From the NCBI RefSeq assembly GCF_003544835.1, contig NZ_CP032099.1, forward strand, positions 806,001-870,000: DNA of 64,000 bases. Direction: 5' to 3'. Below the pieces are notes generated by a model. The model searched no databases. It was not told the DNA's origin and saw nothing but the letters and a program-made list of their open reading frames with translations. The DNA comes from Aliarcobacter skirrowii CCUG 10374 (GTDB lineage: Bacteria; Campylobacterota; Campylobacteria; Campylobacterales; Arcobacteraceae). Positions 39,382-60,549 of this stretch are shown here, one piece after another (position 1 is the first letter of the stretch; the number at the start of each line of letters is the position of its first letter). Position numbers and translations under genes: made by a program.

Positions 39382-39382
39382 A

Positions 39383-44156: not shown

Positions 44157-45230
44157 TTAGTTTATAGGCAAACTAAAGCTATATCTCATCCCTTCAGACT
44201 CTATTGATTCAATTTTAAGTTCATTCTTAAATTGATTTAAAATATTATTTGATTCTATAATTAATACATTCTCACTATTTAGAGTAAATGCATCATCAAT
44301 ATGTCCAATCTCAAAACCATTATTTGATACTAATATATTTAGAGTATCTTTTTTTAATACTACTGTCGCACTAATTTGTTTTTGAGTTTTACCTTTTTTA
44401 ATATCTTTTTTAATAGTATCTAAAATAGATTGTTCTATAAGGTTAAATATTAGATTTTCTATCCAAGATATAGGAATATTTATCTCTTTTTTATAATCTA
44501 TTTTTAAATCATAATCTAAAGATATCTTATATCTATTATCCATATAGTAGTAAAAATCAGCTCTTTTACTTAGTGTTTCAAAAAGATTTTCAATATGTTT
44601 TAAGTTTTTGTTGTTATTAAATGTATTTTCCAAAAAGTTTATAATAGCAGTTTCAAATCTAATAAGCTGTTCATAAAGTAGTGCATAAGAATTTATTGTA
44701 TCAAAGATTAAAGAGCTGTTTATAAGCTCTTCTGATGAATATTTATCTATATGTTTATTAAAATTTGAAGTATCAAAGAGCGTTATATAAAAAAGAAAAT
44801 TATTTAATCTATTTTTTAAATCTATACTATTTTGTAAAGAGTTTATAATATTTTCAATCTCTTTTTGTTTCACTCCATTATTTACTAAGTGTGAAGTTAA
44901 ATCATTTAATAATATTTTATCATCTATAAAAAATGTTTTTAAGTTTAAACTATCAAAAAGTTCTAGCTTTTCTAAAATTTCTTTAAATTCATCAAAACAT
45001 ATATTAATAGATTGATTTAAGATATTTTTTATTATCAATATATTTTTCTCAATTTTTTTATGTGTTAGATTAAATAAATCTCTATTTAATCTAGTTTTAC
45101 CACCAGTTTCATTTGAAAAAATATTGTCAATATTAAAAAGAAAAATATAATCTTTTTTTAGTTCAATTAATGGCTCTAAAATCTCTTCTACTTTTATATT
45201 TACACTATTTTTAATATTTAGATTTTCCAA
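44157..45230 (-). CDS. GHKL/histidine-kinase-like protein, degenerate
   Basis: A 357-residue soluble helical protein. Its last 130 residues resemble an HATPase domain: WIENLIFNLIEQSILDTI in the N-box position, where the usual catalytic Asn context is altered, and ILVSNNGFEI in place of the D-x-G-x-G motif. No conserved phospho-acceptor His region is evident. It is the last gene of the filament-type operon, three bases after the PilP-like gene. It may be a pseudokinase signalling component, but the fold assignment is tentative. Confidence 0.45.
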   Translation of the reverse strand: MENLNIKNSVNIKVEEILEPLIELKKDYIFLFNIDNIFSNETGGKTRLNRDLFNLTHKKIEKNILIIKNILNQSINICFDEFKEILEKLELFDSLNLKTFFIDDKILLNDLTSHLVNNGVKQKEIENIINSLQNSIDLKNRLNNFLFYITLFDTSNFNKHIDKYSSEELINSSLIFDTINSYALLYEQLIRFETAIINFLENTFNNNKNLKHIENLFETLSKRADFYYYMDNRYKISLDYDLKIDYKKEINIPISWIENLIFNLIEQSILDTIKKDIKKGKTQKQISATVVLKKDTLNILVSNNGFEIGHIDDAFTLNSENVLIIESNNILNQFKNELKIESIESEGMRYSFSLPIN

Positions 45231-45233
45231 AGT

Positions 45234-45992
45234 TTATTCCTTATTCTTAGAACTTATATTTAAATTTGATTCTTGAACTATATTTTTAATAGAATTTTTT
45301 GTAGAGATTGGTTTGTCTATATTTCCAGTTATTTGTTCATATCTTGGATGATTTCTATCAATTGTTTGAAGATTACTTAAGTTTATTCCATAGTTGCTAA
45401 GATATATTGTATATCCTGAAATTTTATCTAAATCTTTAAATAGTTCTATACTTTTTGTTCTAGTATTAATATCAACAATTTTATGACCAAAAACAGTATC
45501 CCCTAACATATATCGTCCTTCAATATTTCCACTAATTTCTGTAGTCTGTTTTGATCTATTAGCTGTTTCATCATCAAGAAGTAAAATCACATAATTTATC
45601 CCATTAAATCTATACATACTTTTAATTTTCAAATCTTTTAATCTTTTTGTTCTTGTAAAATCAGAAGCAATTCTTGCTAACTCATTTTGATGATTAAATA
45701 CATCTTTCTCTCTTTGCTCTTCAGTAATAACACCACCTTGAGCATTAGTAGCTTTTTGTTTAGTTAGCATTTCACGCTCTCTTTGCTCTTTTGTTCTTTT
45801 TATCTGTTCATCAAGATACTCTTTTTCTAAGCCTGTAACTGCCATATAAAAATCTTGTGATTGTTTATCCATCATATCAAGCTTATTTAATTTCTCCTCT
45901 TGGTTTGTACTATTTTCTGTCTCTTTTGTGTTTTCAGCATTTATCAAACTAAAACTCAAAAACAAAATTAATGTTGCTACCTTTAAATTCAT
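45234..45992 (-). CDS. PilP/GspC-like periplasmic protein
   Basis: A 252-residue exported protein: signal peptide at 1-19 (ending LINAEN), a charged helical region (Gln/Glu/Lys-rich, about 30-100), then a compact beta-domain from about 130 containing MYRFNGINYVILLLDDE, GRYMLGDTVFGHKIVDIN and SIELFKD. The pattern of a homology-region beta-sandwich with 'G-D-x-[VF]-x-x-x-K-[IV]' resembles PilP/GspC, which link the inner-membrane assembly platform to the secretin. The ATG at 45992 follows GAGAGGG and is preferred over an upstream in-frame start. Confidence 0.6.
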   Translation of the reverse strand: MNLKVATLILFLSFSLINAENTKETENSTNQEEKLNKLDMMDKQSQDFYMAVTGLEKEYLDEQIKRTKEQREREMLTKQKATNAQGGVITEEQREKDVFNHQNELARIASDFTRTKRLKDLKIKSMYRFNGINYVILLLDDETANRSKQTTEISGNIEGRYMLGDTVFGHKIVDINTRTKSIELFKDLDKISGYTIYLSNYGINLSNLQTIDRNHPRYEQITGNIDKPISTKNSIKNIVQESNLNISSKNKE

Positions 45993-46005
45993 AATTTTCC
46001 CTCTC

Positions 46006-48327
46006 TTATTTAAATTTATATTCATAGTTAAATCCACCAATATATGTTGGATATTTTATAAAAAATGCATCTTTGTGCAATTTTCCACCATCTGCACCAT
46101 AAACCTCTCCTGTCCATTCTCCTGATGAGATATTTGTTAAATAATCACTTGCACCCTCAACCATTAAGAAATCTTTATCTAAATCATATAAGTTTGTATT
46201 AAAAACTGGAATCATAAAAGTATTACCCCAGCTTGTGCTTCCTGATGCATTTCTATAATAAGATTGCATACCCCAACAATACATTTGATTATTTATATCA
46301 ATTCCACAAATACCATTCTCTTCTTGAATAACTTTAACCTGTATCCATTTTATTTTTTTAATAGCATCTGTAAAATATTTATCATCACTATGAGATGAGC
46401 TAAAAAACATATCGCCTTTGAGTTCATTGTACTCATTTACCCAAACAACTCCACTACTAAAATTTGATGGATTATTTAAATCATTTATTGTTTTAGATAT
46501 ATCAGCAGAGATTATCTTAGCATCTTTTGTTGCATCATATTTTAAAAGTCCATTACCATTTGAACTATTATATGTTTTTATCTTCTCTTTTATAGACTCT
46601 ATTTGAATCTTATCTTTAGTATCATTTGATTGAGAAATTTTATAAAAATCACCATTTTCATCTTGTGCTACAAAACCATCAATTCCACCTTTTAAAGATA
46701 CAAAGTTTGGAATAATAGACAAATTTGAGTTATTTGGCTCTATTTTAACTGGAGAGCAAAAATTATATGTTTTACTTCCAAATTTTCTTTCACAAGCTTT
46801 ACTACCACTAACTCCCTCAACTCCCCAAATATAAACTCCCCCAATTTTATCTATTGCACCAATTCTTCTAAATCCTATGGTTGTAATATATGTAATATCT
46901 TCTATATTTGATAATCCATTAATAGAACTATAATTTGTAAATTTTGATGAAACACTCCCATTTCCAGCAAAACCACTAGAGGGATCACCCCAAATATAAA
47001 CATTTCCATCTTCACCTAAAAAGTGCCATATTTGATTGTTTGCAAAGAGTCTATTTACTCTTTTTGAATTTGTTGAACCATCAAAGTGTTTACTTCTATA
47101 CAAAAGTTCACCCTTTCTATTAGTTCCGTCTAAATCATCATACCAAGAGCTACTATTTCCACCAGTTGTACCTCCACAATATACCTCTTTATTTGTAGAA
47201 ATCCCACAAGCACCATGATAAACTGATATAAAAAAATCAATAAATTTTGGTCTATTTGGAGAGTTAAAGTAGTTTTGCTCATAATATTTATCATTATAAA
47301 CATTTGTTTTATCTTTGTTGTATGTATTTTGAACATTATTATAAAGTTTTGCTCTTAAAGGCATAGCTATATTTACTACAACTTCTGAATTTGAATTTGT
47401 GTTACCTGTAAAATATTTACTTCCTTTTATTCCTGTTATTGCTTTACCATTATTTCCCCAAGCATAGATATCACCATTTACAATCATTCCTCCAGCTCGT
47501 CTATAAAAATATATTACAGTCTCTCCTACAGATATGGAATCAGGATTTACTCTTATAAAATTATTTGGACCAATTGCAATTGACTCTTTTATTGTTCTAC
47601 ACTCTGTTTGATTAACACCTCCATAGATACAATCAAATACAGATAGTCCAAGAGTTATAAACTCACTTGGTATTTTTAAATCTTTTACATCTTTAGTTAC
47701 TTTTAAATTTTCATCTTGAAATTGAATTCCAGCTGCAAATGTCATACCTATGTTTGTACTATAAGAGTATTTGTATTTTCCATCATTTCCATAATAATCA
47801 AGTGATACATTATTTAAAATATTATCGTTGTTGCTCAAATTATCATTTGCATCAATTGTAGATTTTATTATAAATCTACCTGCTGTAGGTGTTTGATTTG
47901 GTTTTAAAACTTTATCCTGATTATTTTGAATAAATTTTTCTATAATAGATAAATTTATTTTTGTATTACTATTTTTGTTTAATGGAGCCAATGTATAAAC
48001 TCTATTCGAATTTGTATAATAATATAAAATCATATCATTTAACAGAGTCTCATTTTTTGGTATAAAAGGTTTTATCTCACCATCTTCTATACTCATTTTA
48101 ATTCCAAAAGGGTTTATAAAATCAAAACCATCAACCAAATAAGGTGACAAATCTTCTATTTTTTCTGGTTTCTTTGCTTCTACTATTAAATATTTTTTAT
48201 AAGCAACTGCTATTTGCTCCTCTTTTTGTATTAACTTATCTATCTTCTTTTTATTCAAAATATCAAATTCAGATGAAGCAAATAAGTTTATACATACAAA
48301 TAAGATTATAAAAGATATCTTTTTCAT
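46006..48327 (-). CDS. Exported protein with RCC1-like beta-propeller repeats
   Basis: A 773-residue secreted protein. Residues 1-18 form a signal peptide. Residues about 25-150 carry the module shared with three neighbours (LIQKEEQIAVAYKKYLI). From about 270, RCC1-like blades appear: NGDIYAWGNNGKAI, TNKEVYCGG, DGNVYIWGDPSSG, GGVYIWGVEG, NNQMYCWGMQSYY; several blades contain cysteines. The end YPTYIGGFNYEYKFK is shared with the 945-residue paralogue. Located inside the filament operon, it may be a surface-exposed tip, adhesin or secreted substrate. RCC1 folds usually serve protein binding. Confidence 0.7.
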   Translation of the reverse strand: MKKISFIILFVCINLFASSEFDILNKKKIDKLIQKEEQIAVAYKKYLIVEAKKPEKIEDLSPYLVDGFDFINPFGIKMSIEDGEIKPFIPKNETLLNDMILYYYTNSNRVYTLAPLNKNSNTKINLSIIEKFIQNNQDKVLKPNQTPTAGRFIIKSTIDANDNLSNNDNILNNVSLDYYGNDGKYKYSYSTNIGMTFAAGIQFQDENLKVTKDVKDLKIPSEFITLGLSVFDCIYGGVNQTECRTIKESIAIGPNNFIRVNPDSISVGETVIYFYRRAGGMIVNGDIYAWGNNGKAITGIKGSKYFTGNTNSNSEVVVNIAMPLRAKLYNNVQNTYNKDKTNVYNDKYYEQNYFNSPNRPKFIDFFISVYHGACGISTNKEVYCGGTTGGNSSSWYDDLDGTNRKGELLYRSKHFDGSTNSKRVNRLFANNQIWHFLGEDGNVYIWGDPSSGFAGNGSVSSKFTNYSSINGLSNIEDITYITTIGFRRIGAIDKIGGVYIWGVEGVSGSKACERKFGSKTYNFCSPVKIEPNNSNLSIIPNFVSLKGGIDGFVAQDENGDFYKISQSNDTKDKIQIESIKEKIKTYNSSNGNGLLKYDATKDAKIISADISKTINDLNNPSNFSSGVVWVNEYNELKGDMFFSSSHSDDKYFTDAIKKIKWIQVKVIQEENGICGIDINNQMYCWGMQSYYRNASGSTSWGNTFMIPVFNTNLYDLDKDFLMVEGASDYLTNISSGEWTGEVYGADGGKLHKDAFFIKYPTYIGGFNYEYKFK

Positions 48328-48815
48328 CTATTTTCCCTTGGTTTTTGTATATAGTCAACAAAGTAAATATTTTCAAATTCATCTCTTTGTTTAACTTCTC
48401 CTAAATACTCTAGTATTTTTTTACCAGCTATTTTACCAAGTTCTGTAGTTGATTCTAAATCTACTATTAATATATACCTATCTATACACATCTGTTTTGT
48501 ATCTATAAGAGATAAATTATAATCAACCAAAGAGAAGTTATTGAATATTGATTTTAATTTATTATCAATCTCTTCTTTAGATGCATAGCTAGATTTTACT
48601 AGATTTGTTTTATCTTTAATATTTTGTATATTATCTTTTATTCTATTTGTAACTTCTCTTTTTTCATCAAGCTCTTTTGTTAAAGATACTTTTTCATTGT
48701 ACATTTTATAGTACTCAAATCCTGAAATTAAAAAGAAAAATAGTATATATACTAAAAACAAAATAATAGATAACTTTGATATTTTTATAATCCGTTTTTT
48801 ACTTAAACTAATCAT
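48324..48815 (-). CDS. PilO/GspM-like membrane protein
   Basis: A 163-residue bitopic protein: helix at about 12-32 (KLSIILFLVYILFFFLISGF), coiled coil at about 38-80 (KVSLTKELDEKREVTNRIKD), then a small alpha/beta domain. This is the architecture of PilO/GspM in assembly platforms. It overlaps the PilN/GspL-like gene upstream and the RCC1-like gene downstream by four bases each. Confidence 0.6.
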   Translation of the reverse strand: MISLSKKRIIKISKLSIILFLVYILFFFLISGFEYYKMYNEKVSLTKELDEKREVTNRIKDNIQNIKDKTNLVKSSYASKEEIDNKLKSIFNNFSLVDYNLSLIDTKQMCIDRYILIVDLESTTELGKIAGKKILEYLGEVKQRDEFENIYFVDYIQKPRENR

Positions 48816-49561
48816 TTTAACTCTTCTTTATAAGTTATACAAGATATTAAATTATCATACTCTTTTTGTGCAGTGCTAAAAGCTTTATCTTGTCTTTTTA
48901 TGAAATCATTTTCAAACCTTAACTCTTGTTTTAAAGGGTCTAAAGTAGGATGCGTTAAATAATCTTTTTTTAAGTCAATAAGTCCAAAAAATAGACCATA
49001 GAATATAATAAAAAATAAAAATACTAAAATGGATAGTTTTGTGTAAAATGTCTTTGAACTATCTAACTCATTTAAATTTTCACAAAGTTCGGCTACTTCT
49101 CCTAACTTAAAGCATACAACCTCTTTTTTATCATTTTTTATATTTTCTTGTAAAAGAACTTCTATTCCTGCCCTAAATTTTGATTCAACTATATAATTTA
49201 TTTTTTTTATCTCTCCACCACTACTTAACATTGTAATGTGCTTTGTCATAAGTATTGATTTAATCATATCATCAGTTATAAAACTAGGATTTATTTTTGC
49301 ACTATATATTGTTTTATGATTAAATAAAAGTACATACTCTTCATCTGCAATATAGATTAAAAACTCATTATTTGCCAAATATTTTTTAGATAGAAGATTT
49401 AATGAATAATATTCATAAATACTATTTTTAGGTACATAAACTTCTCTTTTTTTAAATTTATTATAAGTAAATAATCTTTTTGATAATTCAAATCTATCAT
49501 TTAAATAAAAATGTTCACTCTCTTCTTGTGAGTTAAAATCAGTTATTGCTAATCGTACCAT
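48812..49561 (-). CDS. GspL/PilN-like bitopic protein
   Basis: A 249-residue protein with a cytoplasmic N-terminal domain (1-170, an actin-like-reminiscent alpha/beta region with FLIYIADEEYVLLFNHKTIY), one membrane helix at about 173-195 and a short periplasmic helix. GspL or fused PilM-PilN proteins anchor the assembly ATPase to the membrane, and this gene lies immediately after the ATPase gene (13-base overlap). Assignment rests on topology and order. Confidence 0.55.
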   Translation of the reverse strand: MVRLAITDFNSQEESEHFYLNDRFELSKRLFTYNKFKKREVYVPKNSIYEYYSLNLLSKKYLANNEFLIYIADEEYVLLFNHKTIYSAKINPSFITDDMIKSILMTKHITMLSSGGEIKKINYIVESKFRAGIEVLLQENIKNDKKEVVCFKLGEVAELCENLNELDSSKTFYTKLSILVFLFFIIFYGLFFGLIDLKKDYLTHPTLDPLKQELRFENDFIKRQDKAFSTAQKEYDNLISCITYKEELK

Positions 49562-51219
49562 ACTTCTTCTCCCCTTATAATTGCTTGAGCATCCTCATAA
49601 GTTATAAAACCAGCATCATATTGTGCTAAAGTTGCTTTTTCAACAGTCATATACTCAGCAGGATTTTCAAAATCACCACCTGCTCCAATTTTAAATCTAA
49701 CAACTTCTGCAATAGGAACTCGGCCTTTAAAACCTGTATTTCCACAATGTTCACAACCAACTTTTTTATTTCCACCTTTTCCATCAGGTTCACAACAACT
49801 TGTACATAGTTTTCGCACCAGTCTTTGAGATACTATTCCTCTTAAGTTATCAATAACATCTCCCTCATTAATTCCCAAAGAGCTAGTCATCCTTGAAACA
49901 GTTGCTGGAGCTGAGTTTGTATGCATTGTAGAAAATACTAACTGTCCTAAGTTAGATGCATTTACGAGTTGAAATGCAGTTTGTGGCTCTCTTGTCTCTC
50001 CAATAAGTATAATATTTGAATCTTGTCTTAAAATATCAACAACAGCTTCAGGATATCCATATTTAAACTCCTCACTTGCACTTGCAAATTCAGATAAATC
50101 AATTTGGAAGAAAGATTCATCAACATATTCAACAGGATCTTCAATTGTAATAACATATTGTTGTTGTCTTGCAAGTTTTTGAAGTAGGGCATACATAAGG
50201 TGAGTTTTACCACTTCCAACTTGACCAGTTATTAATATCATACCATTTGCATATTTTGTTAGGTTATTTAAAATTTCAATTGTCTCACTAGGATAATTTA
50301 ATCCACCTAAATCATGAGAAACAACTCCTTTACCACCAATCATCCTCATAACTAGTGAGAAGTTTTGTTTTGAGTTTATTAAACCAAGTCTAAATTTAAT
50401 TGGTTTTTTTGCATATTCATAACTAATAATTCCATTAATTGACTCAAAATCTGAATCTTCTTGATCAGCCATAGTTACAAGTCTTCTTTTTAAGGTTTTT
50501 GCAATTGGAATTGGCATTGAACCCATATCAACTTTTATACCATCTATTCTAAACCACAAAAAAGCATTTCTTGAAGTTTTTTGAATATGTATATCACTAG
50601 CTCCAAGTAAAACTGCTTGACCCATTAGTTTTTCAAAATATTTATCAATCTCTTCATCGCTTTCTGTATCAGAAGTTTGATGGAATATAATCTCTCTATC
50701 TTCTCCAAATATTGTAGATAAAACACCCTCTCCAAGAACTATAATTTTTGTAAAGTAGAATTTACTTAAGATATCAAAATCAAGATTTACAACATCTCTA
50801 ATTCCTAATACTTTATTTTTATTCTTTATATCTTCAAGAGTAATCATATACATAGATGAACAAAGCTCTTGTTTTTTATCATCTAAAAATGAAGTAGTAT
50901 CTACATAATATTTTTGAAGTTCTTTGTAGCTATCAAAATATTCATATCCCATACTTTTTACAAATTGTTCATATTTTTTCTCATTTACAATTAAATCAGA
51001 AAAACCACCTTTTAGGTTATACTTATCTTTAATCATATCTTCAATTATAGTTTGAAGATTTGTTTCATTACTATCATCTTTTTTAACTAAATCTTCAAAT
51101 TTTTGTCTATTTATTTCAATAAAATCTTGAAGATTAAATGTTTTTATCTTTTCAAAAAATCTAAAATCAATATTTGGCTTTTTTATTTTTCGTGTTCCTA
51201 CTAAAAATTTTTTAAACAT
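49549..51219 (-). CDS. GspE/PilB-type assembly ATPase
   Basis: A 556-residue hexameric secretion ATPase. The N-terminal domain (1-190) is divergent; the catalytic core has GQVGSGKT (Walker A, 332-339), the Asp-box VITIEDPVEY, Walker B-type IILIGETREP and the His-box LVFSTMHTNSA. A tetracysteine zinc motif CTSCC...CEHCGNTGFKGR follows, as in GspE/PilB and unlike PilT. It powers filament extension or secretion. The start has AAGAAGG upstream, 15 bases after the GspF-like stop. Confidence 0.9.
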   Translation of the reverse strand: MFKKFLVGTRKIKKPNIDFRFFEKIKTFNLQDFIEINRQKFEDLVKKDDSNETNLQTIIEDMIKDKYNLKGGFSDLIVNEKKYEQFVKSMGYEYFDSYKELQKYYVDTTSFLDDKKQELCSSMYMITLEDIKNKNKVLGIRDVVNLDFDILSKFYFTKIIVLGEGVLSTIFGEDREIIFHQTSDTESDEEIDKYFEKLMGQAVLLGASDIHIQKTSRNAFLWFRIDGIKVDMGSMPIPIAKTLKRRLVTMADQEDSDFESINGIISYEYAKKPIKFRLGLINSKQNFSLVMRMIGGKGVVSHDLGGLNYPSETIEILNNLTKYANGMILITGQVGSGKTHLMYALLQKLARQQQYVITIEDPVEYVDESFFQIDLSEFASASEEFKYGYPEAVVDILRQDSNIILIGETREPQTAFQLVNASNLGQLVFSTMHTNSAPATVSRMTSSLGINEGDVIDNLRGIVSQRLVRKLCTSCCEPDGKGGNKKVGCEHCGNTGFKGRVPIAEVVRFKIGAGGDFENPAEYMTVEKATLAQYDAGFITYEDAQAIIRGEEVWYD

Positions 51220-51233
51220 CTTTACCTTCTTTC

Positions 51234-52250
51234 TTATTGATACAGTGTTTTAAAAGTAAATGTAGCAATAACTAAGTTAATAATATCAGAACCAATTACA
51301 ACAGTCACAAGCATAGCTACTAGCCAAAAGAAAAATTTCCATTGTAAAACTAGGTAGTTTATATTTTTTTCATACATAGTATCACATGTTTTATACAAAG
51401 TTTTAGCAAGTTCTGAGTAGTTTGATTTACTAAGTTCTGCTAATCTTATTTCAGCTGTTAGAAGTGTTGGAAAATTATATTTATCAAATGCCATAAATAG
51501 TTTTTTATTTTTTTCAATCATTATTGCTAAATCTTTAAAAAATGGTCTAAGACCTGGTTTGAAATACTCATTTGCCAAAATAGCAGATGTCTTATGAAAA
51601 GATATTCCTGCACTTAACATACCATTTAGAATTCTAAATAGGTATCTTCCATCACTATATGCTTGAGTCTTAAATATTTTATAAAGCCAAGCAGGTCTAT
51701 ATTTTTCTGTGTACATATAATAAAAAAATATAAAAAGAGTTATTAAAATAGAGATTGCTAATCCCCAATATGCAAATGTATATGTGAAATATTTTGGAAT
51801 TCCTAAAAACTGCTCAACATCTGGATTTAATTTTGTTAAATATTCAACATCAGCTTTTAAAAATCCAAGATATAAAATAAGACTATAAAATGAGCCTATT
51901 ATAATTGATAAGGGTAGGAAAATAGGTCCAAGCATTTTCGCTATTAAGTTTGGATTTCCTTTTGTAAATGATAAAACAAGCTTCAAACCCTCAACTGTAC
52001 TTGTACTATTTGATACAATACTATATTGAAAAGTATTTAAAAACTTATATTTATACAAAACCTCTTCTAACTTTTGTTTACCAGTTTCAAGCTCTCTTAT
52101 CGCACCTAAAAGTCTCTTTTTAAATGCAGTTTTTTTTGTAATTTGATCACTATATAAAACTAAAGCTCTTCTTGTATTTGAACCAGTTTCAAGCTTTGTT
52201 ACTAGATAATCTAATAAAAACATCTCATATGGATCTTTAAATAGTGACAT
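51234..52250 (-). CDS. GspF/PilC-like inner-membrane platform protein
   Basis: A 338-residue protein with helices at about 110-130, 160-185 and 308-335 between cytoplasmic helical bundles, as in GspF/PilC. Shorter than classical members (about 400), but with the duplicated F-domain layout (TGSNTRRALVLYSDQITKKT in the first, LFRILNGMLSAGISFHKTSA in the second). It works directly with the adjacent ATPase. Confidence 0.75.
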   Translation of the reverse strand: MSLFKDPYEMFLLDYLVTKLETGSNTRRALVLYSDQITKKTAFKKRLLGAIRELETGKQKLEEVLYKYKFLNTFQYSIVSNSTSTVEGLKLVLSFTKGNPNLIAKMLGPIFLPLSIIIGSFYSLILYLGFLKADVEYLTKLNPDVEQFLGIPKYFTYTFAYWGLAISILITLFIFFYYMYTEKYRPAWLYKIFKTQAYSDGRYLFRILNGMLSAGISFHKTSAILANEYFKPGLRPFFKDLAIMIEKNKKLFMAFDKYNFPTLLTAEIRLAELSKSNYSELAKTLYKTCDTMYEKNINYLVLQWKFFFWLVAMLVTVVIGSDIINLVIATFTFKTLYQ

Positions 52251-52252
52251 TT

Positions 52253-53917
52253 TTAAAATCCTTTAATTTCTCTTAGTGTTATCACATAGACAATCTCTCT
52301 TCGTACATAAGATTTAGAATCTTTACCACCAACTGCAAATCCATCAATTGGAATAATTCCATCATACTCTTTTGCATCATCATGAACAATAATTGAACCA
52401 ACTATTGAAGTTTCACCTAGTTTTACCTCTCTTGATATATTGTACTCTTGATCATTGTATTTTGGAAGACTAACCATATTTCCGCCAGCTAGTGTTGTAT
52501 TATTCCAAGATATAAGTTTTTTAATACTTGGAGTTAGATTTAAAAATATTTTATCTCTTGATATTTTTGCAGATGCTGTTATGCTAGTACCTTCTTTTAA
52601 AGTATTAACTGTAACATCAGAGTCTATCTCATTTGTATCACTATTTCTTGTTGTCTCAATTTTTTCTATATAATCAGTGTTTTCTGTAATTGCTTGAACC
52701 GTTGGAATATTGTTTTTAAGAACTAACATATTTCTACTATAATTCAATATTCTTCCAATATTATTTTCAGATTGAGCCAAAAGTTTTAGGTTTCTAGATA
52801 CTGTATTTTGATCAAAAACAATTGAAGATGAAGATGCTGGTTCTATCTCTCCAATATTTAAGCTAGAACCACTACTATTTATAATATTAGCTCCTAAAAT
52901 ACCAAATGTTCTATCTTTATTTAAAATTAGCTCAACTCTTTCAAACTCAACTATTGCCTCTTTAGAAAAAGATGATTCATAAGCCTTTGCCAAAGTTCTT
53001 ACAGCATTTTCTATATTTTTTGTAGATTTTAAAAATATTAGACCACTAGCTTTATCTATGTGATAAGTTGATAATCTATCATTTGAAATTATACTTTTTA
53101 TCATTTTGTCTAACTCTTCATATAAAACTATAGAAGATTTATTTTCAATTTTACTTCCACTACTGCTCTCTTGATTTGATGTTTGAGATGATGAACTCAT
53201 ATCTAAAAGTGGTATATTTAGCTCAATTACAATATCTTTATATCTTGAAATATTAATGCTCTCTTTCTCATAATCAATATCTACATAAACATCTTTTGAA
53301 CTAGCTAAAGAGTTTAAAGCCTCTCCTAAAGTTTTTGAGTTTAAATTAATTATACTATTTTGGAAATCATTTCTATTTTCAATAGTATTAGCAAGGTTTA
53401 TATTATAACCACTCTCATTTGTAATAAGTTTTAAAAGCTCTTCAACACTTAATTGACCATTTAAAATAAATCTTTTACTATTTATTGATAGTTTTTTTCT
53501 CTCACTTGTGTTTAATAAAGTAACTAAATTCAAATTACCATTCTTTTCTACAACAATAGATTTATCAATAACAGCATTTAAATAGTTACTTAGCTCTTGA
53601 ACAGTATGAATTTTTATTCTACTTCTAGGAATTAAAATATCATTTGATTTTAGAAAATATATTTTATTTTCCATGTTTTCAAGTTCATTTAGTACTTCAC
53701 TTAAAGTTTTATCTTCTAAAATGGAGATATATTTTTGTTTTACCTCATTATTCTCAATCAAACTTTCAGAGTAAGAACTTCTTAAGTTATTTAAATCATC
53801 CTTATTTAGTGCCTCTTTTTGTTTTTCAAGCATTTCATTATGAAAACTTTTAGGAGTACACCCCACAGTAACAAGTAACAAAACTGATAAACCAGAAGAT
53901 AGTAATATTTTTTTCAT
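52253..53917 (-). CDS. Lipoprotein secretin (outer-membrane channel)
   Basis: A 554-residue lipoprotein: lipobox LLLVTVGC with lipidation at about Cys20, N0/N1-type domains (about 60-330, including SRIKIHTVQELSNYLNAVID and LSVEELLKLITNESGYNINL), and a C-terminal secretin barrel with VEFERVELILNKDRTFGILG, ITASAKISRDKIFLNLTPSI and VKLGETSIVGSIIVHDDA. A lipidated secretin without a separate pilotin recalls type IVb pilus PilN/BfpB secretins. It lies between the large RCC1-like gene and the GspF-like gene. Confidence 0.8.
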   Translation of the reverse strand: MKKILLSSGLSVLLLVTVGCTPKSFHNEMLEKQKEALNKDDLNNLRSSYSESLIENNEVKQKYISILEDKTLSEVLNELENMENKIYFLKSNDILIPRSRIKIHTVQELSNYLNAVIDKSIVVEKNGNLNLVTLLNTSERKKLSINSKRFILNGQLSVEELLKLITNESGYNINLANTIENRNDFQNSIINLNSKTLGEALNSLASSKDVYVDIDYEKESINISRYKDIVIELNIPLLDMSSSSQTSNQESSSGSKIENKSSIVLYEELDKMIKSIISNDRLSTYHIDKASGLIFLKSTKNIENAVRTLAKAYESSFSKEAIVEFERVELILNKDRTFGILGANIINSSGSSLNIGEIEPASSSSIVFDQNTVSRNLKLLAQSENNIGRILNYSRNMLVLKNNIPTVQAITENTDYIEKIETTRNSDTNEIDSDVTVNTLKEGTSITASAKISRDKIFLNLTPSIKKLISWNNTTLAGGNMVSLPKYNDQEYNISREVKLGETSIVGSIIVHDDAKEYDGIIPIDGFAVGGKDSKSYVRREIVYVITLREIKGF

Positions 53918-53925
53918 CTCTTTCC

Positions 53926-56763
53926 TTATTTAAATTTAAATGAATAGTCAAAACTATTTATATATGTTGGGTATTTCAAAAATAAATTCCCAGAGTTATC
54001 AAATTTCTCAAAGGACATTTGATCATATAAGTTTTCTCTAGGATTTATAAAGAGTTTATTAACACTTGGAATTTTATCTATATCAAAAGCTCCTGTGTTA
54101 ATAATAGGTAAAGATCTTGCAACATCTCCCCAACAATACATTTGATCTAATCCTCTAGCACCTGTAATTGTACATATAAATGGATTTGATGGCTCTTTAT
54201 CATATATAATTTGAATATCAGCAATTCCAAATCCTTCGTTATCCCAATTTTCATCTACAATAGCACCAAATCCTATTTTAATTCTTCCATTTGAATCTGT
54301 TTTTGAATTTATTTTAAAAACATGCTCTTTTAATCTCATTTTTATATCATTATTAACATTGCTTTTTTCTTCAACAGTAATAAATTTACCACTATTTGAA
54401 TGGTTATTAAAAGTCGCTTCTTGGGCAATATTATTATTTATAAATATTCTAAATTTTTCATTATCCCAAGAACCAAGTTCATATATTTTTATTAAAATTG
54501 TAATCTCTTTATCTTTTGCATCATTTATTAAGTACTCTTTTGATATCGCTTGTGAACCATTTGTATTTATTCTTAAATTATTAGTAGAGTGATTCTTTCC
54601 AAAAACTCCAAGAAATGGTTCAACAACATAATCTTTTCTTGTATTCCACCAAAAGAGACCATCTTGGACTCTTATTTTTCCATCATGAAAAGCGCCACTC
54701 CATCCATTTAAAACACTATTTTGAAAATTCTCTTTTTGACTTGAAAAAATATTTGGTTTAAAATAACTTATATTTTTAAACCAAGCATATTTTTTACTTC
54801 CAACATCAATAGATGGTTTGTTTAAAGTATCTAAGGCATCATCAAAAATAGTTTTATCATCACCTGTACAAGATGTTCCATCTGTATTTTTACAATTTGT
54901 TGCAAATGAGTTTGCATCTTTAGTTTTTAATTCACCATTTTGATTGATATAAGCAATTTGCCAAGAGCCATTTTTATTTAAATATGCTGTTGCAGATGTC
55001 ATTCTCTCATCACCTGAATTTAGAGATATTTCATTTATGTTGTTATTTTCATTTAAATAATAAAATCTTCCTCTATTATCTCTTAGTACAAAAGTATCTG
55101 CTTGTGGTAGGATATAATCTTCAGAAAATCTTATAGAGCTTGAAACTAAAGTTGGCTTTTTTAAAATCTCTTTTAGAGTCTCTCCCCAAATATATAAGTT
55201 GTCATTATCATCTAAAGCAGTGAAAACTCTTCTATCTCTAGTCGCAGATATACTTACAAAAAATTTATCAGGCATAATTTGAGATTTGTTTGAATAGAGA
55301 TTAAAATCATCACTTGCAACACCTAAAATACCATTTGTATTTTTTCCAATAGTATATAATTTTCCATCATCACTTAAAACTAAAATAGCATCTTCAACCA
55401 TAGCAATATCTTTTAAAAATATTGCATTATTATTTTGTGAATTATCATTTTTATATTTTGCAAACTCAATATTTTGTCTAAGAATTGATTTTGCACCATT
55501 TTCGCTAGTAATTTTATATTCACCAATTGGTAAATCTCCATTGCAATATAAATTTCCAGCATGATTTAAAATAATTTTATCATCACTATTTTGATTTGAA
55601 CTATTTTGAATATTTTCACAACTATCTTCTTCCAAGCTGCCATCATCTTTTTGTGTTGCTTTTGATTCAAAAATAGGAGATATTCCACAAACCATTTTAC
55701 TATTCATTGCCATTTTTTCAAATTTTACTCTAAATGGTGAATTAAACCATCTTTTACTAACAATATCTAAATTGGCTTCATTTTCTAAGTCTGATTTTAG
55801 CATCACAGGAGTATTTATAAAATCAGCTGATATATTTTTATCAAGTTGTCCATAGTTTTCAATTCCTGCTTTCTTAAAGCTATTGTCTCCCCAACAAAAT
55901 ATATCTCCATTTGCAAGCATACATCCACCATTTGATCTAATAACTAAATCTTTTGCTTGTGGAATATAGTTTAAAATTCTCTCTTCTAAGCACAAATCAC
56001 TATTTTTTCTATCATTTCTTCTATTTACAATACTCCAACCATCTCCATCTATACCAAATAAAAACTCTCCCATATAATTATCTTTAGTATAAATTTTATC
56101 TCCAATTTCACCTTTTATAAAATCTCTTTGCTTATTATCTTCAATATATTTTGGATAGCTAGAGTAAACATTAATTGTATTTTGATTTGAATCACAATAT
56201 TTGTAGACTAAATCATTTTTTTCTATTTGCCAAAAGTTTCCAGTTGAACCACATTTTGAAGATACTTTTTGAACTCTCTCACCTTTTGCTATTTTTTCTA
56301 ATATCTTTTTTTGTAAAGAGTGATATTTTATAAAAGTACCCTTTTGTAAATCCTCTTTTTTATTGCTAATTGGGGCTTGAGTATTTATTCTGAAATTTTG
56401 ATCAATATAAAAGTTGTATACAAAATTTTCACTTTGTTTATATGGAACATCATCTAGAACCATAGATTTTACAACAACTCTTTGATTTGGTAAAATCTCA
56501 ATTTGAAGATTTCTATCATTAAATGGATTTTTGAAATCTTTAAATTTATCTCCAAGTAGATATATAAGTTTCTCATCTTCAATATCAAATTCACCATCTT
56601 TTACTGGAAGTTTTAACTCTTCAAGAATATATCTATTTATTGCAAGAGCCAAATACTCCTCTTTTGCAATTAATATCTTTACATTATTTATTTTAGATTC
56701 ACTTGTAGTAGAGGCTAGTAAATTACTTAAAAGTAAAGATATTATTACAAAATATTTAAACAT
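53926..56763 (-). CDS. Large exported RCC1-like protein
   Basis: A 945-residue secreted protein: signal peptide (1-17), the shared N-terminal module (LIAKEEYLALAINRYILEE near 30-48), and scattered RCC1-like blades: NGDIFCWGDNSFKKAGI, HAGNLYCNGD, DGKLYTIGKNTNGILGVA, DDNLYIWGE and DQMYCWGDVARS. A middle region (about 690-860) inserts a beta-rich domain with no RCC1 pattern. The C-terminus YPTYINSFDYSFKFK matches the 773-residue paralogue. It lies directly upstream of the secretin gene. Cell-surface or tip location is inferred. Confidence 0.7.
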   Translation of the reverse strand: MFKYFVIISLLLSNLLASTTSESKINNVKILIAKEEYLALAINRYILEELKLPVKDGEFDIEDEKLIYLLGDKFKDFKNPFNDRNLQIEILPNQRVVVKSMVLDDVPYKQSENFVYNFYIDQNFRINTQAPISNKKEDLQKGTFIKYHSLQKKILEKIAKGERVQKVSSKCGSTGNFWQIEKNDLVYKYCDSNQNTINVYSSYPKYIEDNKQRDFIKGEIGDKIYTKDNYMGEFLFGIDGDGWSIVNRRNDRKNSDLCLEERILNYIPQAKDLVIRSNGGCMLANGDIFCWGDNSFKKAGIENYGQLDKNISADFINTPVMLKSDLENEANLDIVSKRWFNSPFRVKFEKMAMNSKMVCGISPIFESKATQKDDGSLEEDSCENIQNSSNQNSDDKIILNHAGNLYCNGDLPIGEYKITSENGAKSILRQNIEFAKYKNDNSQNNNAIFLKDIAMVEDAILVLSDDGKLYTIGKNTNGILGVASDDFNLYSNKSQIMPDKFFVSISATRDRRVFTALDDNDNLYIWGETLKEILKKPTLVSSSIRFSEDYILPQADTFVLRDNRGRFYYLNENNNINEISLNSGDERMTSATAYLNKNGSWQIAYINQNGELKTKDANSFATNCKNTDGTSCTGDDKTIFDDALDTLNKPSIDVGSKKYAWFKNISYFKPNIFSSQKENFQNSVLNGWSGAFHDGKIRVQDGLFWWNTRKDYVVEPFLGVFGKNHSTNNLRINTNGSQAISKEYLINDAKDKEITILIKIYELGSWDNEKFRIFINNNIAQEATFNNHSNSGKFITVEEKSNVNNDIKMRLKEHVFKINSKTDSNGRIKIGFGAIVDENWDNEGFGIADIQIIYDKEPSNPFICTITGARGLDQMYCWGDVARSLPIINTGAFDIDKIPSVNKLFINPRENLYDQMSFEKFDNSGNLFLKYPTYINSFDYSFKFK

Positions 56764-57536
56764 TACTCAACTCCATAAATTCTAGGTTTTCCATCTTCAC
56801 TAGCAATGATTTTTATATATTTTTTACCATCTGAGTAGATAATAGTTCCTATATTTAAATCTTCAAACCCCATCTCTATGTAAATTGGGTCGTCTTCTTT
56901 TAGTGGTGGATTATTTATTCTTTTACTTATAAAAATAGCGCCTTTTTCCATATCTTTTATATTGTATATAATATGTGAATCATTTAGTGTATATTTTCTA
57001 ATTGTTTTTTGATTATCTTTTGGATTTATGCAATATTTATTTGCCTCACATTTACTATAGTCATCTACTTTTAAAATAGTATCTCCATTATTTAAAATTT
57101 TAAATAGATTTTGTGCCTCTTTTGATTTTAAAACTATTTTTACATATTGAAGTTTTTCATCTTTTTCATAAACAGATGTTCTATCTCTATACAGATCTCT
57201 TTTGTAATATAGCTTTATAAACTCATCAGAGTATTTTTTGCTATCAATAGCTATTGCTAATTTATCATTTGAACCACTAAAAAATGCCAAATCTTTACCA
57301 AACATATTTTTTAAAGAGAAATTTGAGCCCAAATAGTAGCTATCTTCTGGATTTTGATTATCTTTTAGTAAATCGTTCATTGTGGGAATTTTAAACTCAT
57401 TTAAAATATATTTCTCAAAATTATATGCTATTTGCTCTTCTCTTTCAATAACATTTGAAAGAGCTAAAACAGTTCTATTATCAAGTGCAAAAAGGTTTAA
57501 ACACAATAAAAATATTGTAAAAATATATTTTTTCAA
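56763..57536 (-). CDS. Exported protein with the shared N-terminal module, short form
   Basis: A 257-residue exported protein: signal peptide 1-17 (LNLFALD), then VIEREEQIAYNFEKYIL, the module also seen in the 247-, 773- and 945-residue neighbours, and YKRDLYRDRTSVYE at about 110. It ends at a domain with GFEDLNIGTIIYSDGKKYIK that is repeated in the 247-residue neighbour (IFSNGTIFYDRDGIKYLK). Two cysteines are close together (SKCEANKYC). No RCC1 repeats. Its stop overlaps the start of the 945-residue gene. Confidence 0.6.
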   Translation of the reverse strand: MKKYIFTIFLLCLNLFALDNRTVLALSNVIEREEQIAYNFEKYILNEFKIPTMNDLLKDNQNPEDSYYLGSNFSLKNMFGKDLAFFSGSNDKLAIAIDSKKYSDEFIKLYYKRDLYRDRTSVYEKDEKLQYVKIVLKSKEAQNLFKILNNGDTILKVDDYSKCEANKYCINPKDNQKTIRKYTLNDSHIIYNIKDMEKGAIFISKRINNPPLKEDDPIYIEMGFEDLNIGTIIYSDGKKYIKIIASEDGKPRIYGVE

Positions 57537-57540
57537 TCTA

Positions 57541-58284
57541 CTACTCCTCTACACTTAAATTTGCAAATTTTTTATCTTTTGCATTCTCATCACCAATTTT
57601 TAAATATTTTATTCCATCTCTATCATAAAATATAGTTCCATTTGAAAAAATATTAAATATTGGTTCATCTTCGTCAATTTTTTCAATGATTATAGGACCA
57701 TTTTTAAATGAGTTTAAAGAAAAAGCTAATAAAAATTTGCTAGGTTTTTCTTTGTATGATGAATCTTCAAAAACATAATCATACTTTTCTACATCTACAT
57801 AAATACTATCTTCAAGATGACAAAGTTCTATCTTGCTTGTATATTTTTCTGGACATAAATCAATGCTATTTATATTTTTATACAACATAATAGTAGCAAG
57901 AAGTTTAGCCAAAGGATTTTGTAGATTAAAATATATTTTATTCTCTATAAAATAACTTCTATCTCTATATGTAGAACTCTCATATAAATTTTTTGCAAAA
58001 CTATCATTTTGTAGCTCTTCAGGTAAATTTGAACTAAAACTTAATATATTTTGATTTTTATCAAAATTTTTTATACTATTATTAATTATTAGCTCATTAT
58101 CTGCTATATAAGAAGGTGTTACAAATCTGAAATCTTGAATTATATGGTTCTCAAAAGAGTTTATAAATCTCTCTTCCATCTCTATAATCTCTTTTACTTT
58201 TTTTGCTATATTTTGAGTATTATCAAAATTAGAGTTTGCATTTATAGATAAAAATAGAACAAGTAATAAAATAAGTTTTTTCAT
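57541..58284 (-). CDS. Exported protein with the shared N-terminal module, short form
   Basis: A 247-residue exported protein, paralogue of the 257-residue gene four bases downstream. Signal peptide 1-17, then IIEMEERFINSFENHII and YESSTYRDRSYF, and the C-terminal GTIFYDRDGIKYLKIGDE. Two cysteines (LCPEK and LCHLE) may pair. It begins inside the end of the 240-residue gene (four-base overlap). Probably a structural or minor subunit; no biochemical function can be read. Confidence 0.58.
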   Translation of the reverse strand: MKKLILLLVLFLSINANSNFDNTQNIAKKVKEIIEMEERFINSFENHIIQDFRFVTPSYIADNELIINNSIKNFDKNQNILSFSSNLPEELQNDSFAKNLYESSTYRDRSYFIENKIYFNLQNPLAKLLATIMLYKNINSIDLCPEKYTSKIELCHLEDSIYVDVEKYDYVFEDSSYKEKPSKFLLAFSLNSFKNGPIIIEKIDEDEPIFNIFSNGTIFYDRDGIKYLKIGDENAKDKKFANLSVEE

Positions 58285-59003
58285 AAGTTATCCTTTAAAA
58301 CTTGATGAACTCTTGCTTCATATCCAATTGTAGAGCTATTTAAACTCTCTTTTATAGAGTAGAGAAATCTATCTTTCAAATCTTTTTTCTCATCTTCGAT
58401 TACATTGTTATAATCTGGAATAAAACTTTCAACTTTTGATTCTTTAAAATCTTTAATTATATTAATATTTGAAACGTCATCAATTTTTTTGTTAGTATCT
58501 AAAATATTTGGTAGTAAAATTGCAAAAAGATAGTTTGTAGCACTATTTACACTATCTTTCCACTCTTTTTGTTCATTATAGAAATTTTTTGAGTGAGGAG
58601 CTATTTGTATCTTATATTCTCCATTTTCTAAAATAAACTGCTCTTTACTTATTTTTGCTCTTAAAGCCATTATTTTTAATCTTTCACTTTGATCTATCTT
58701 TATATTTGCATTCTCATCTATAAAGTTTTTATTTGAAAGATTACTTGAATTATCTCTATCTAATAAAAATGCCTTTTCCCAACTTCCATTTGGTAAAGAT
58801 GCAATTAAATCATCTCTTGTGATTGTGCTTGTATCTTTAATATTATACTTTTTTGCATAATCCTCTTTAAGTTTACTAATGATTTCATAGTTTTCTTGAA
58901 TATGTCTAATCTCTCTTTTGGTATTTAGTGAGTGAATAGCTCCTGCAATAACAAAAATAGATACAACTACAAAGGCAGATTTTATGAAGATATTTGATAC
59001 CAA
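58281..59003 (-). CDS. Pilin-like single-pass protein
   Basis: A 240-residue protein whose first 25 residues are a hydrophobic helix (IKSAFVVVSIFVIAGAIHSL) without a classical prepilin leader, followed by a long amphipathic helix (REIRHIQENYEIISKLKEDY) and a variable globular part. This alpha-helical spine plus head resembles a pseudopilin. The start is TTG, with an excellent AGGGGGAG five bases upstream. Downstream of the abundant-pilin gene and its attenuator-like hairpin. Confidence 0.55.
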   Translation of the reverse strand: MVSNIFIKSAFVVVSIFVIAGAIHSLNTKREIRHIQENYEIISKLKEDYAKKYNIKDTSTITRDDLIASLPNGSWEKAFLLDRDNSSNLSNKNFIDENANIKIDQSERLKIMALRAKISKEQFILENGEYKIQIAPHSKNFYNEQKEWKDSVNSATNYLFAILLPNILDTNKKIDDVSNINIIKDFKESKVESFIPDYNNVIEDEKKDLKDRFLYSIKESLNSSTIGYEARVHQVLKDNL

Positions 59004-59069
59004 AACTCCCCCTAAATTTTTGTTAAAACAAACTAGAATTTTAAACTTAAAACTCTAATTTATCTTATA

Positions 59070-59092
59070 TTTAAAGGGAAAACCCCTTTAAA
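59070..59092 (-). terminator. Hairpin after the main pilin-like gene
   Basis: 9-bp stem TTTAAAGGG / CCCTTTAAA with a five-base loop, just after the stop of the 231-residue gene on the minus strand. The tail is AT-rich but not a clean U-run, so partial termination is likely. This would make the pilin-like mRNA more abundant than the machinery mRNA. Confidence 0.65.
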
Positions 59093-59095
59093 TAT

Positions 59096-59791
59096 TTATT
59101 TAGATAGAACTAATTCGCTTGGACCAAAGTCATAAAAGTAGATTGCAAACATACCATCATCATTTGTTCCTGTTGTCGCTTCTATTGGTAATCTTTGTTC
59201 TGCAGCAGTACCCGTTGTTCTTTTTGCTCCAGCTTCAAATGTAGCACCAGCTGTAGCAACACTAGCTTTTCTATCTACATATGCGATACCTTTTAAATCT
59301 GTTTCTATTTGAGATTCTAGGAAACCTGCATTATCTTCTAAAGTACCTCTACTTAAGTCAACAAAAATTCCAGGTATTGTACCAGGAGTATTTGCTATCA
59401 AAGATATTAACATAGAACCTGAACCATCTGTATTGTTAGTAGCATTTCCACCAAAAGATATAGCTGAGTATTGATTAAACGTATTACCAGTTCTTGCATT
59501 TCCATCTTTATCTCGTGCAATTTGTTCATTTATTTGCTCTGCAAAATAACCATCTCTTGCTAGACCAACTAAAGTGTTATAATATTCAACTGGATTTGCT
59601 GTACTGTAATCATTTGCAATCTTTCCATCTCTAGCAGCAAATTTTAGACCACTTTTAATATTATTAATCTCTGTAATAACACTTGTTTTTTGTGCTACAC
59701 CAGTTATTTTATCACCAGTTCCCCCAAAAGTTTGGAACATATAAATCATAGCCCCAACTACAATGATAATCATCGCTATCAACTGTGGCAT
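59096..59791 (-). CDS. Leaderless pilin-like protein, probable major subunit
   Basis: A 231-residue protein starting directly with a hydrophobic helix (MPQLIAMIIIVVGAMIYMFQ), then TEINNIKSGLKFAAR, and a Gly/Thr/Asn-rich beta-domain ending near NDDGMFAIYFYDFG. It has AAGGGG before the ATG, the strongest ribosome site of the operon, and a terminator-like hairpin behind it, consistent with high expression. No G-F-x-x-x-E cleavage motif exists, so if it is a filament subunit it is not processed by an ordinary prepilin peptidase. Related to the 222-residue gene upstream. Confidence 0.55.
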   Translation of the reverse strand: MPQLIAMIIIVVGAMIYMFQTFGGTGDKITGVAQKTSVITEINNIKSGLKFAARDGKIANDYSTANPVEYYNTLVGLARDGYFAEQINEQIARDKDGNARTGNTFNQYSAISFGGNATNNTDGSGSMLISLIANTPGTIPGIFVDLSRGTLEDNAGFLESQIETDLKGIAYVDRKASVATAGATFEAGAKRTTGTAAEQRLPIEATTGTNDDGMFAIYFYDFGPSELVLSK

Positions 59792-59880
59792 TTGTACCCC
59801 TTAAATTTAAATTTTATAGTTAAAAAACTATTAGGAAAAAATTTTAGCTTAACTATTATTAAATAAGTATTAAAAAAATA

Positions 59881-60549
59881 TTATTTAAAAATTATACAAG
59901 CAAATTTTCCATCATTTTTATCTCCGCTTGTAGTTAAGTTTAAATTTTCATTAATATTGTTAGCTTTTGTAAAGAATATTCCAAATAACTCTTTTTGACA
60001 TAAATCTTTGTATCTATTCTCTGTAAATGCAGGTTTGTTTATTAAAGCTGTTTCATTACTAAAATCAACAAATAGCTTATAACCATTTCCAGCATCTTTG
60101 CTTAAATCTATTGTACTTCCACTATCTTGTGTTGGATTATCGCTTGTAACTATTGGAACTAAAATATACTCAATCTTGCTATTTGGAAATATTAGTTTTG
60201 TTGTTGAATACTTTTTAATATCAGCCTCTACTTCATTTTCAAAAGCAAGATTTATCTCATTTTTTATTGTATTTTCAACACTTCCCAAAGAGCTATTATC
60301 TTTATATTTTAAATTTTCTCCACTAACAGCACTAATATAAGATGGAAATATATCGCTTGAATAGATTTTCGCAAAATTAATTGTGCTTAAGTCACTATAT
60401 AAATTTATATAGTTCTCATTTAAAACCAAAAAACTCTTCTCAGCACTATTTAAAGAGCTTAAAAAAGAGCTATCATCTGCCTCATATCTAGAAAAAAATA
60501 TGATGATTGCAACACTAACTGCAACAATAGTACCTAGAAAATATCCCAT
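59881..60549 (-). CDS. Leaderless pilin-like protein
   Basis: A 222-residue protein with an N-terminal hydrophobic helix (FLGTIVAVSVAIIIFFSRY) and a globular domain whose end, LFVDFSNETALINKP...GKFACIIFK, aligns with GIFVDLSRGTLED...GMFAIYFYDF of the 231-residue protein. Two cysteines near the C-terminus (LCQKE, ACIIF) could form the disulfide seen in many pilins. First gene of the operon, 20 bases after lptB, with AAAGGAG before the ATG, so it may be co-transcribed with lptB. Confidence 0.55.
   Translation of the reverse strand: MGYFLGTIVAVSVAIIIFFSRYEADDSSFLSSLNSAEKSFLVLNENYINLYSDLSTINFAKIYSSDIFPSYISAVSGENLKYKDNSSLGSVENTIKNEINLAFENEVEADIKKYSTTKLIFPNSKIEYILVPIVTSDNPTQDSGSTIDLSKDAGNGYKLFVDFSNETALINKPAFTENRYKDLCQKELFGIFFTKANNINENLNLTTSGDKNDGKFACIIFK

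Follow-up and report, generated by a model that had tools for sequence, protein, structure and literature searches.

How might a type IV filament be assembled when the pilin-like proteins encoded beside its machinery appear to offer a prepilin peptidase nothing to cut? The question is raised by 14 closely spaced genes, here named g1 to g14, which run on the minus strand from 60549 down to 44157 of a stretch of 64,000 nucleotides (the window; positions 806,001 to 870,000 of contig NZ_CP032099.1) in the genome of Aliarcobacter skirrowii CCUG 10374, itself a single contig of 1.97 Mb. All 14 reading frames were confirmed on the minus strand between 44157 and 60549 (Table 1), and g2 alone is flanked by gaps, of 89 and 92 bp. 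We favour, with a probability of about 0.58, the reading that the operon builds a type IV filament whose pilins lack leaders and whose tip bears propeller adhesins exported by Sec. A type IV filament or secretion-type operon had already been proposed from a sequence-only reading of the window, and this assignment stands: g9 is an ATPase of the T2SSE family (Pfam, E 2.7e-60), with GspE and PilB the best of the 28 sequences matched in the PDB, and the platform and the secretin are more weakly supported.

The N-termini of the pilin-like proteins g1 and g2

In reviews, a cleavable class III leader is the defining mark of a type IV pilin, and the prepilin peptidase counts as one of five ancestral parts (PMC10191384, PMC4471445; these and the other papers given by PMC number are cited from excerpts of their texts). 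In all 17 aligned rows g2 opens with MPQLIAM, after which come a hydrophobic run as far as F22 and the block GGTGDK; positions 1 to 30 are nearly invariant and the remainder is strongly variable. We collected 22 g2-type genes from 21 of 23 loci (L039 and L058, which meet contig ends, gave none, L077 gave two, and an unrelated match in L043 was ignored); none of the 22 has an in-frame ATG, GTG or TTG upstream, back to the preceding stop, and a Shine-Dalgarno-like purine run lies just 5' of the g2-type ATG. With no start codon upstream in 22/22, a long unannotated leader before g2 was dropped as a candidate, as was a prepilin with the long leader of type IVb pili. A regular expression for a class III leader with Glu5 matched in none of 21 loci of this kind and in 3/3 sister loci. 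Pfam N_methyl, allowing E up to 1, gave no match in the operon and four in the rest of the genome, a single one of which exceeds the cut-off. The N-terminus of g1 is related to that of g2 (hhalign P 1.4e-4, residues 1-40), the only signal obtained when g1 and g2 were compared by hhalign with each other and with g4 to g12, and g1 has no room for a leader either, except for one TTG eleven codons upstream in L045. The same pilin type occurs in a divergent locus of genome G337. To judge from these sequences, a cleavable class III leader appears to be absent from the major pilin-like protein g2 and from g1, and a prepilin peptidase would then not be needed for either.

The sequence-only reading had pointed to the lack of a prepilin peptidase in the window. 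None is encoded there, and one lies elsewhere in the genome (PF01478, 48 bits, genome position 1800362), as one does in 18/18 carriers of the operon among 60 relatives. The missing gene is in itself unremarkable, since the MSH loci described in the excerpt of PMC6668835, which reports them in Epsilonproteobacteria, are also without one; the remarkable point is that the pilins have no leader for the peptidase to cut. No described leaderless or peptidase-independent pilin was found in the literature searched, the scope of which mostly excluded subscription papers.

Structural modelling hints at a pilin fold for g2. AlphaFold2 models were built for g2 and g12 on 9 and 8 alignment rows, respectively, and that of g2 (predicted local distance difference test score, pLDDT, 65; predicted template modelling score 0.69) has a helix at 3-20, a second at 26-54 and then an alpha/beta domain. 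Its four best rows in VIA-align are pilin entries, namely PilA1 (Z 6.7 and 5.5), TcpA (Z 5.9 over 131 residues, root-mean-square deviation (rmsd) 4.2) and FimA (Z 3.8), and the unrelated rows that follow have Z of at most 3.3. Residue 3 of g2 aligns with mature FimA residue 1, and a matching offset of two is seen with TcpA. Two prepilins of the sister systems rank 3 and 4 of 114 open reading frames against the g2 profile (P 0.002 and 0.005), ranks which hint that g2 may be remotely kin to these canonical prepilins; hhalign of g2 with the L078 prepilin at 8099 gave E 0.47, and a PDB profile search with g2 returned only cystatins, at E 0.13 or worse.

Elsewhere in the window, on the plus strand at 39374-39811 and just before priA, lies a canonical prepilin-like frame (KIKAFSLLETILVV..) with no ATG, GTG or TTG from the preceding stop to the motif; as its sequence stands, it could start at an ATC, with a leader of three residues. 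Within the operon a 12-bp stem follows g2 directly, at 59067-59095. Stems after major-pilin genes often stabilise their mRNA; terminator-like sites are no commoner here than in shuffles, and a scan of the operon for promoters and terminators gave the same counts as shuffled sequence.

RCC1 propellers and the module shared by four exported proteins

Two very large exported RCC1-like proteins had been recognised from the sequence, and both g6 and g12 prove to be conserved members of the operon, present in 16/16 uncut loci. Pfam RCC1_2 exceeds its cut-off of 22 bits in both (23.9 and 39.3 bits, respectively), and the fold is backed by a PDB profile search (HERC2, RCC1, UVR8). In the model of g12 (pLDDT 64 over its whole length, about 90 at residues 31-60) a helix at 4-50 leads into a small domain, and a propeller follows; the model matches HERC2, UVR8 and RCC1 (best Foldseek E 1.4e-11; VIA-align Z 15.1 over 263 residues, rmsd 4.0), and the propeller is nearly as close to the PLL/PHL lectins (VIA-align Z 14.6). 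A seven-bladed RCC1 propeller is thus predicted, as a modelled fold for g12 and by RCC1_2 repeats only for g6. Both proteins end, with few exceptions, in KYPTYI..F.Y.F.F[KR], where the g12 model has a strand at 757-763 that we infer would close the propeller. Between the blades of g6 stand inserts that look by eye like jelly rolls and differ in number and kind among species; the g6 ortholog of L058, for instance, carries Pfam Laminin_G_3 (E 1.2e-17) together with antifreeze repeats.

A common module ties the propeller proteins to two smaller ones: the N-terminal regions of g6 and g12 belong with g4 and g5 to one family (hhalign E 6e-26 to 8e-10). All four have Sec-type signals, whose last residue is by eye typically A or S, and the module has the helix pattern KEE.IA.AY..YI, then K.P. 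In the divergent system of G337 there are two tandem large RCC1 proteins with this module (L098:7564-9468 and L077:468-3158). The sister system at L079:14976-16621 has two Sec-signal proteins in which a helix and a G[YS]VP turn recall g4 and g5, and one of the two matches the g12 module (P 3e-4); the g6 and g12 profiles found no matching open reading frame in sister loci L076, L078 and L079.

An RCC1 propeller on a pilus system is not unprecedented, contrary to the sequence-only reading, which knew of no described case. PilX2, a minor pilin of the T4P-2 of Nanosynbacter lyticus TM7x, has a hepta-bladed RCC1 propeller and no predicted PilD signal, and its deletion lowers host binding, according to the excerpt of PMC12206443. 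The present operon resembles that system in this respect and differs from it in the leaderless major pilin-like protein, in having two propeller proteins plus g4 and g5 with one module, and in its secretin. The stronger novelty appears to be the pilins without leaders together with a family of Sec-exported pilin-like modules.

Propellers are also found on type IVa pili, whose PilY1 protein is exported by Sec. PilY1 is large, sits at the tip and has a seven-bladed propeller (cited in the excerpt of PMC12206443); here the propellers are of the RCC1 type, and the common N-terminal module and the paralogs g4 and g5 set the system apart as well.

The assembly machine, its relatives and its distribution

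Beyond the ATPase, the parts of the machine are recognised with differing clarity. The platform g8 scores below the cut-off for T2SSF (E 7e-4, 19.9 bits against 25.2), and its profile retrieves platform-like genes in the sister systems. For the secretin g7 the best NCBIfam model is MshL at 50.1 bits against a cut-off of 250.2, short of an MSHA-type secretin, with a weak Pfam Secretin_N_2 match besides; a PDB profile search gave spurious matches only. The sequence-only reading had named GspL/PilN-, PilO- and PilP-like proteins; in Pfam and NCBIfam, g10 has no convincing match and g11 and g13 only sub-threshold, unrelated ones, so the names GspL/PilN, GspM/PilO and PilP for g10, g11 and g13 are owed to position and topology only. 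A bacterial SH3 domain (SH3_3) is present in 15/16 aligned g13 members, and the window copy ends before it, a loss that from the sequence is likely a recent deletion; g14 of A. skirrowii starts 3 bp after the truncated g13. The kinase label of the sequence-only reading found no support: g14 has no meaningful Pfam match and no HATPase domain among 14 members, nothing better than E 0.2 in a PDB profile search, and was dropped as an ordinary kinase, although it could still hold a degenerate HATPase_c domain. Family searches gave no match for g3.

Table 1. Genes g1 to g14 of the operon, in window coordinates
Gene	Assignment	Coordinates	Strand	Features
g1	pilin-like	59881..60549	-	222 aa; starts MGYFLGTIV.. 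at hydrophobic helix; no apparent leader; N-terminus related to g2
g2	likely major pilin	59096..59791	-	231 aa; starts MPQLIAMII..; no apparent leader; hypervariable C-terminal part
g3	minor-pilin candidate	58281..59003	-	TTG start; single N-terminal transmembrane helix, then long helix; no family match
g4		57541..58284	-	Sec-type signal; N-terminal module common to g5, g6, g12
g5		56763..57536	-	TTG start; Sec-type signal; N-terminal module common to g4, g6, g12
g6		53926..56763	-	945 aa; Sec-type signal, shared module, RCC1 propeller with jelly-roll-like insert varying by species; conserved C-terminal KYPTYI..F.Y.F.FK
g7	lipoprotein secretin	52253..53917	-	weak Pfam/NCBIfam matches; lipobox-like TVGCT by eye
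g8	short GspF/PilC-type platform	51234..52250	-	338 aa; sub-cut-off T2SSF
g9	assembly ATPase	49549..51219	-	556 aa; Pfam T2SSE
g10	GspL/PilN position	48812..49561	-	cytoplasmic part, then one transmembrane helix; position and topology only
g11	GspM/PilO position	48324..48815	-	short, single transmembrane helix, coiled; position and topology only
g12		46006..48327	-	773 aa; Sec-type signal, helix-led shared module, RCC1 propeller (~268-773), conserved C-terminal strand
g13	PilP-position periplasmic protein	45234..46040	-	window copy without the C-terminal SH3 domain of orthologs
g14	conserved protein, no family match	44157..45230	-	357 aa; HATPase-like ending by eye only

The phylogeny of the ATPase, named in the sequence-only reading as a check, sets the system apart. 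In a tree of 41 of the 43 rows (L048, a split gene, and L039 were left out; eight rows are of odd composition) all 18 rows of this system fall into a single clade (100/100), adjoined by the divergent G337 relative (99/99) and then by the three Campylobacterota sister systems (100/99). Lying apart are GspE, HofB, the second ATPase of the same genome, 12 other ATPases of the order, the IncI type IVb ATPase and three other plasmid ATPases; the branches are long and the deep order of the tree is therefore unsafe. The nearest curated models score far under their cut-offs (GspE 194 of 630 bits, TfpB 183 of 850, PilB 180 of 676), which places the ATPase outside these curated classes. It is accordingly no type II secretion system ATPase by the GspE model, and there is no prepilin motif in the operon; the TadA family of Tad pili, at 33.5 of 373 bits, falls far below GspE and PilB. 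A retraction ATPase was sought with TIGR01420, whose best score (168.6 bits against a cut-off of 319.1) is at the other ATPase locus of the genome, and a PilT-driven pilus was dropped on that score.

The sister systems L076, L078 and L079 share the same core genes, the nearest ATPases and a remote pilin similarity, and differ in having canonical prepilins with a K/R leader and Glu5. MSHA-type (MSH) systems are alike in their best secretin model and in the absence of a peptidase from the locus, and differ in that here the MshL cut-off is not reached, the pilins appear leaderless and propeller proteins are present. Lipoprotein secretins of type IVb pili include TcpC and BfpB. Type IVb pili such as TCP and CFA/III resemble this operon in compactness, in the lipoprotein secretin and in tip-carried Sec-exported proteins, TcpF and CofJ being carried on a minor pilin at the tip (excerpt of PMC9565799), and TcpA is structurally near g2. 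Type IVb leaders are long in the excerpts, however, whereas here there is apparently none, propellers stand in place of the TcpF and CofJ folds, and, in a tree with long branches, the ATPase falls apart from the one type IVb ATPase compared (IncI, PilQ-type). The particular kinship to type IVb pili suggested by the order of genes in the sequence-only reading is not borne out by this tree, in which the ATPase groups with the sister systems, unsafe as the deep order is.

Seventeen ortholog loci were fetched, of which 16 are uncut by a contig end and one, L039, shows 8/14 genes. All 14 genes recur in one fixed order in 16/16 uncut loci, with differing flanks, and on this conservation a chance assembly of unrelated genes was dropped. 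At an identity of at least 75% the ATPase is present in 18/60 relatives, counting the genome itself, all 18 being among the 37 that belong to the same family, and g12 in exactly those 18; further ATPase matches at about 30-35% belong to other systems, including the second ATPase of the same genome at 1499059. Among 104 Arcobacteraceae genomes the platform occurs in 25, g12 in 25 and both in 24. The fixed order and this co-occurrence indicate that the propellers belong to the system, and the idea that the RCC1 genes are passengers was dropped. A platform profile search across the order at 1e-8 matched 15/398 genomes, 14 within the family and one, G107 (L076), outside it; the latter match is a sister system, as is that of G036 within the family. 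The operon has so far been found only in Arcobacter relatives, among them Arcobacter vandammei, Poseidonibacter lekithochrous and Aliarcobacter metagenome-assembled genomes, and a plasmid search for the ATPase matched only distant ones. Loci L051, L052, L053, L054, L056 and L057 were not counted as independent of L042, L041, L043, L034, L081 and L039. Across the ortholog loci identity is 33-59% for g6 and 30-70% for g12, compared with 69-83% for the platform and 74-88% for the ATPase; the faster divergence of g6 and g12 and the variable inserts of g6 are as expected of exposed parts.

Several variants depart from the common layout. G447 (L097) has the operon tail only, cut at g10 beside a phage-type integrase gene, the genes upstream of the cut lying beyond that stretch. 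A Mutator-family transposase (E 2.6e-102) breaks up the platform gene of G009 (L032:9574-10776), whose operon may therefore be dead or switchable. In G019 (L048) the ATPase is split into two frames of 443 and 136 residues, perhaps through a frameshift or a sequencing error. G421 (L096) has g1, g2, g7 to g11, a short g13 and g14, and is without g3 to g6 and g12; at L096:15654-16775, opposite the operon, it encodes a 373-aa protein with a g1-like leaderless start which, from its sequence, may be an alternative tip subunit.

What the operon may build

We propose that a machine composed of the ATPase, the platform, inner-membrane alignment proteins, an SH3-bearing periplasmic linker and the lipoprotein secretin would extrude a filament of g2, as major pilin, and g1. 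Both would be translated without a class III leader, the mature N-terminus being made directly and probably only Met removed. The proteins g4, g5, g6 and g12 would be exported by Sec and lose their signal peptides; once in the periplasm they would dock on the filament by way of the helix-led module that they share, perhaps together with g3. Passage through the secretin would then bring them to the tip or close to it, where surfaces or glycans would be bound by the RCC1 propellers of both g6 and g12 and by the variable, lectin-like inserts in g6. That such a filament forms, with g2 as its main subunit, propellers at its tip and a role in adhesion, is what we infer from the genes.

Several points weigh against this proposal. 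The filament itself is so far a prediction from genes. Foldseek of the g2 model found no pilin at a usable E-value; the pilin rows come from re-aligning 57 chains, with Z below 8 and model residues 1-27 at pLDDT below 50, and both models are middling (pLDDT 65 for g2, 64 for g12). G421 keeps the core without propeller genes, so the machine as such does not depend on propellers. Finally, position 6 carries a small residue throughout (Ala in g2; Ser, Ala or Gly in g1), which would permit a six-residue hydrophobic leader cut after it.

On that last account the prepilin peptidase would remove a very short leader (MPQLIA, MGYFLG, MAYFVA) and maturation would be ordinary, in keeping with the small residue 6 of the g2 and g1 rows and with a peptidase gene in this genome and in 18/18 carriers among the 60 relatives. 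We think it unlikely: leaders in the excerpted reviews are hydrophilic and precede a hydrophobic stretch of 20-25 residues (PMC10191384, PMC4471445), whereas the cut here leaves about 16; the structural register puts mature residue 1 at g2 residue 3; the small residue of g1 is often Ser; and the leaderless register brings the small residue to the position of Glu5, explaining its smallness equally well. A somewhat better, though still doubtful, case can be made for pilus-driven secretion, in which a short pilus or pseudopilus would export the propeller proteins as free soluble cargo in the manner of TcpF and CofJ or of a type II secretion system. The Sec-type signals of g4, g5, g6 and g12 are in line with this, the shared N-terminal module could be an export signal, and TcpF and CofJ are themselves Sec-exported and carried on a minor pilin (PMC9565799). 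Yet those two are recognised, in the excerpt, by short N-terminal segments, while here a whole domain of about 100-200 residues is common to four proteins, and variable inserts and lectin-like domains fit an adhesin held at the surface at least equally well.

Alternatively, the RCC1 proteins might form a periplasmic or outer-membrane scaffold of the machine rather than surface adhesins. The location of g12 between the envelope-machine genes g11 and g13 in all uncut loci and its nearly invariant C-terminal motif would suit such a part, which we nevertheless hold to be improbable, given that G421 retains the machine without any propeller, that g6 and g12 diverge faster (30-70% identity) than the platform and the ATPase (69-88%), and that the inserts of g6 vary. 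Least probable by far is a DNA-uptake machine. The plan of ATPase, platform and secretin is common to the competence apparatus, but the same genome has a separate ATPase locus at 1499059, in a distant clade, which from Campylobacter genomes we take to be the competence system, and the platform is missing from 79/104 genomes of the family.

Returning to the filament of leaderless pilins, we would lay even odds on a wider view, namely that the operon represents a family which has abandoned prepilin processing, with pilins born mature, a small residue replacing Glu5, and a tip of Sec-exported pilin-like modules with RCC1 propellers and exchangeable lectin inserts. If true, a natural leaderless pilin with close relatives that bear leaders would mean that assembly can do without cleavage and N-methylation, and would provide a clean genetic system in which to probe the roles of cleavage, N-methylation and Glu5. 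The shared Sec-exported module suggests, moreover, a second route for loading large adhesins onto a pilus. No described pilus for Arcobacter-type bacteria turned up in our literature searches, and this operon may be their main adhesion organelle, one in which, should the leaderless reading hold, a maturation step regarded as universal may be bypassed for the filament proteins g2 and g1.

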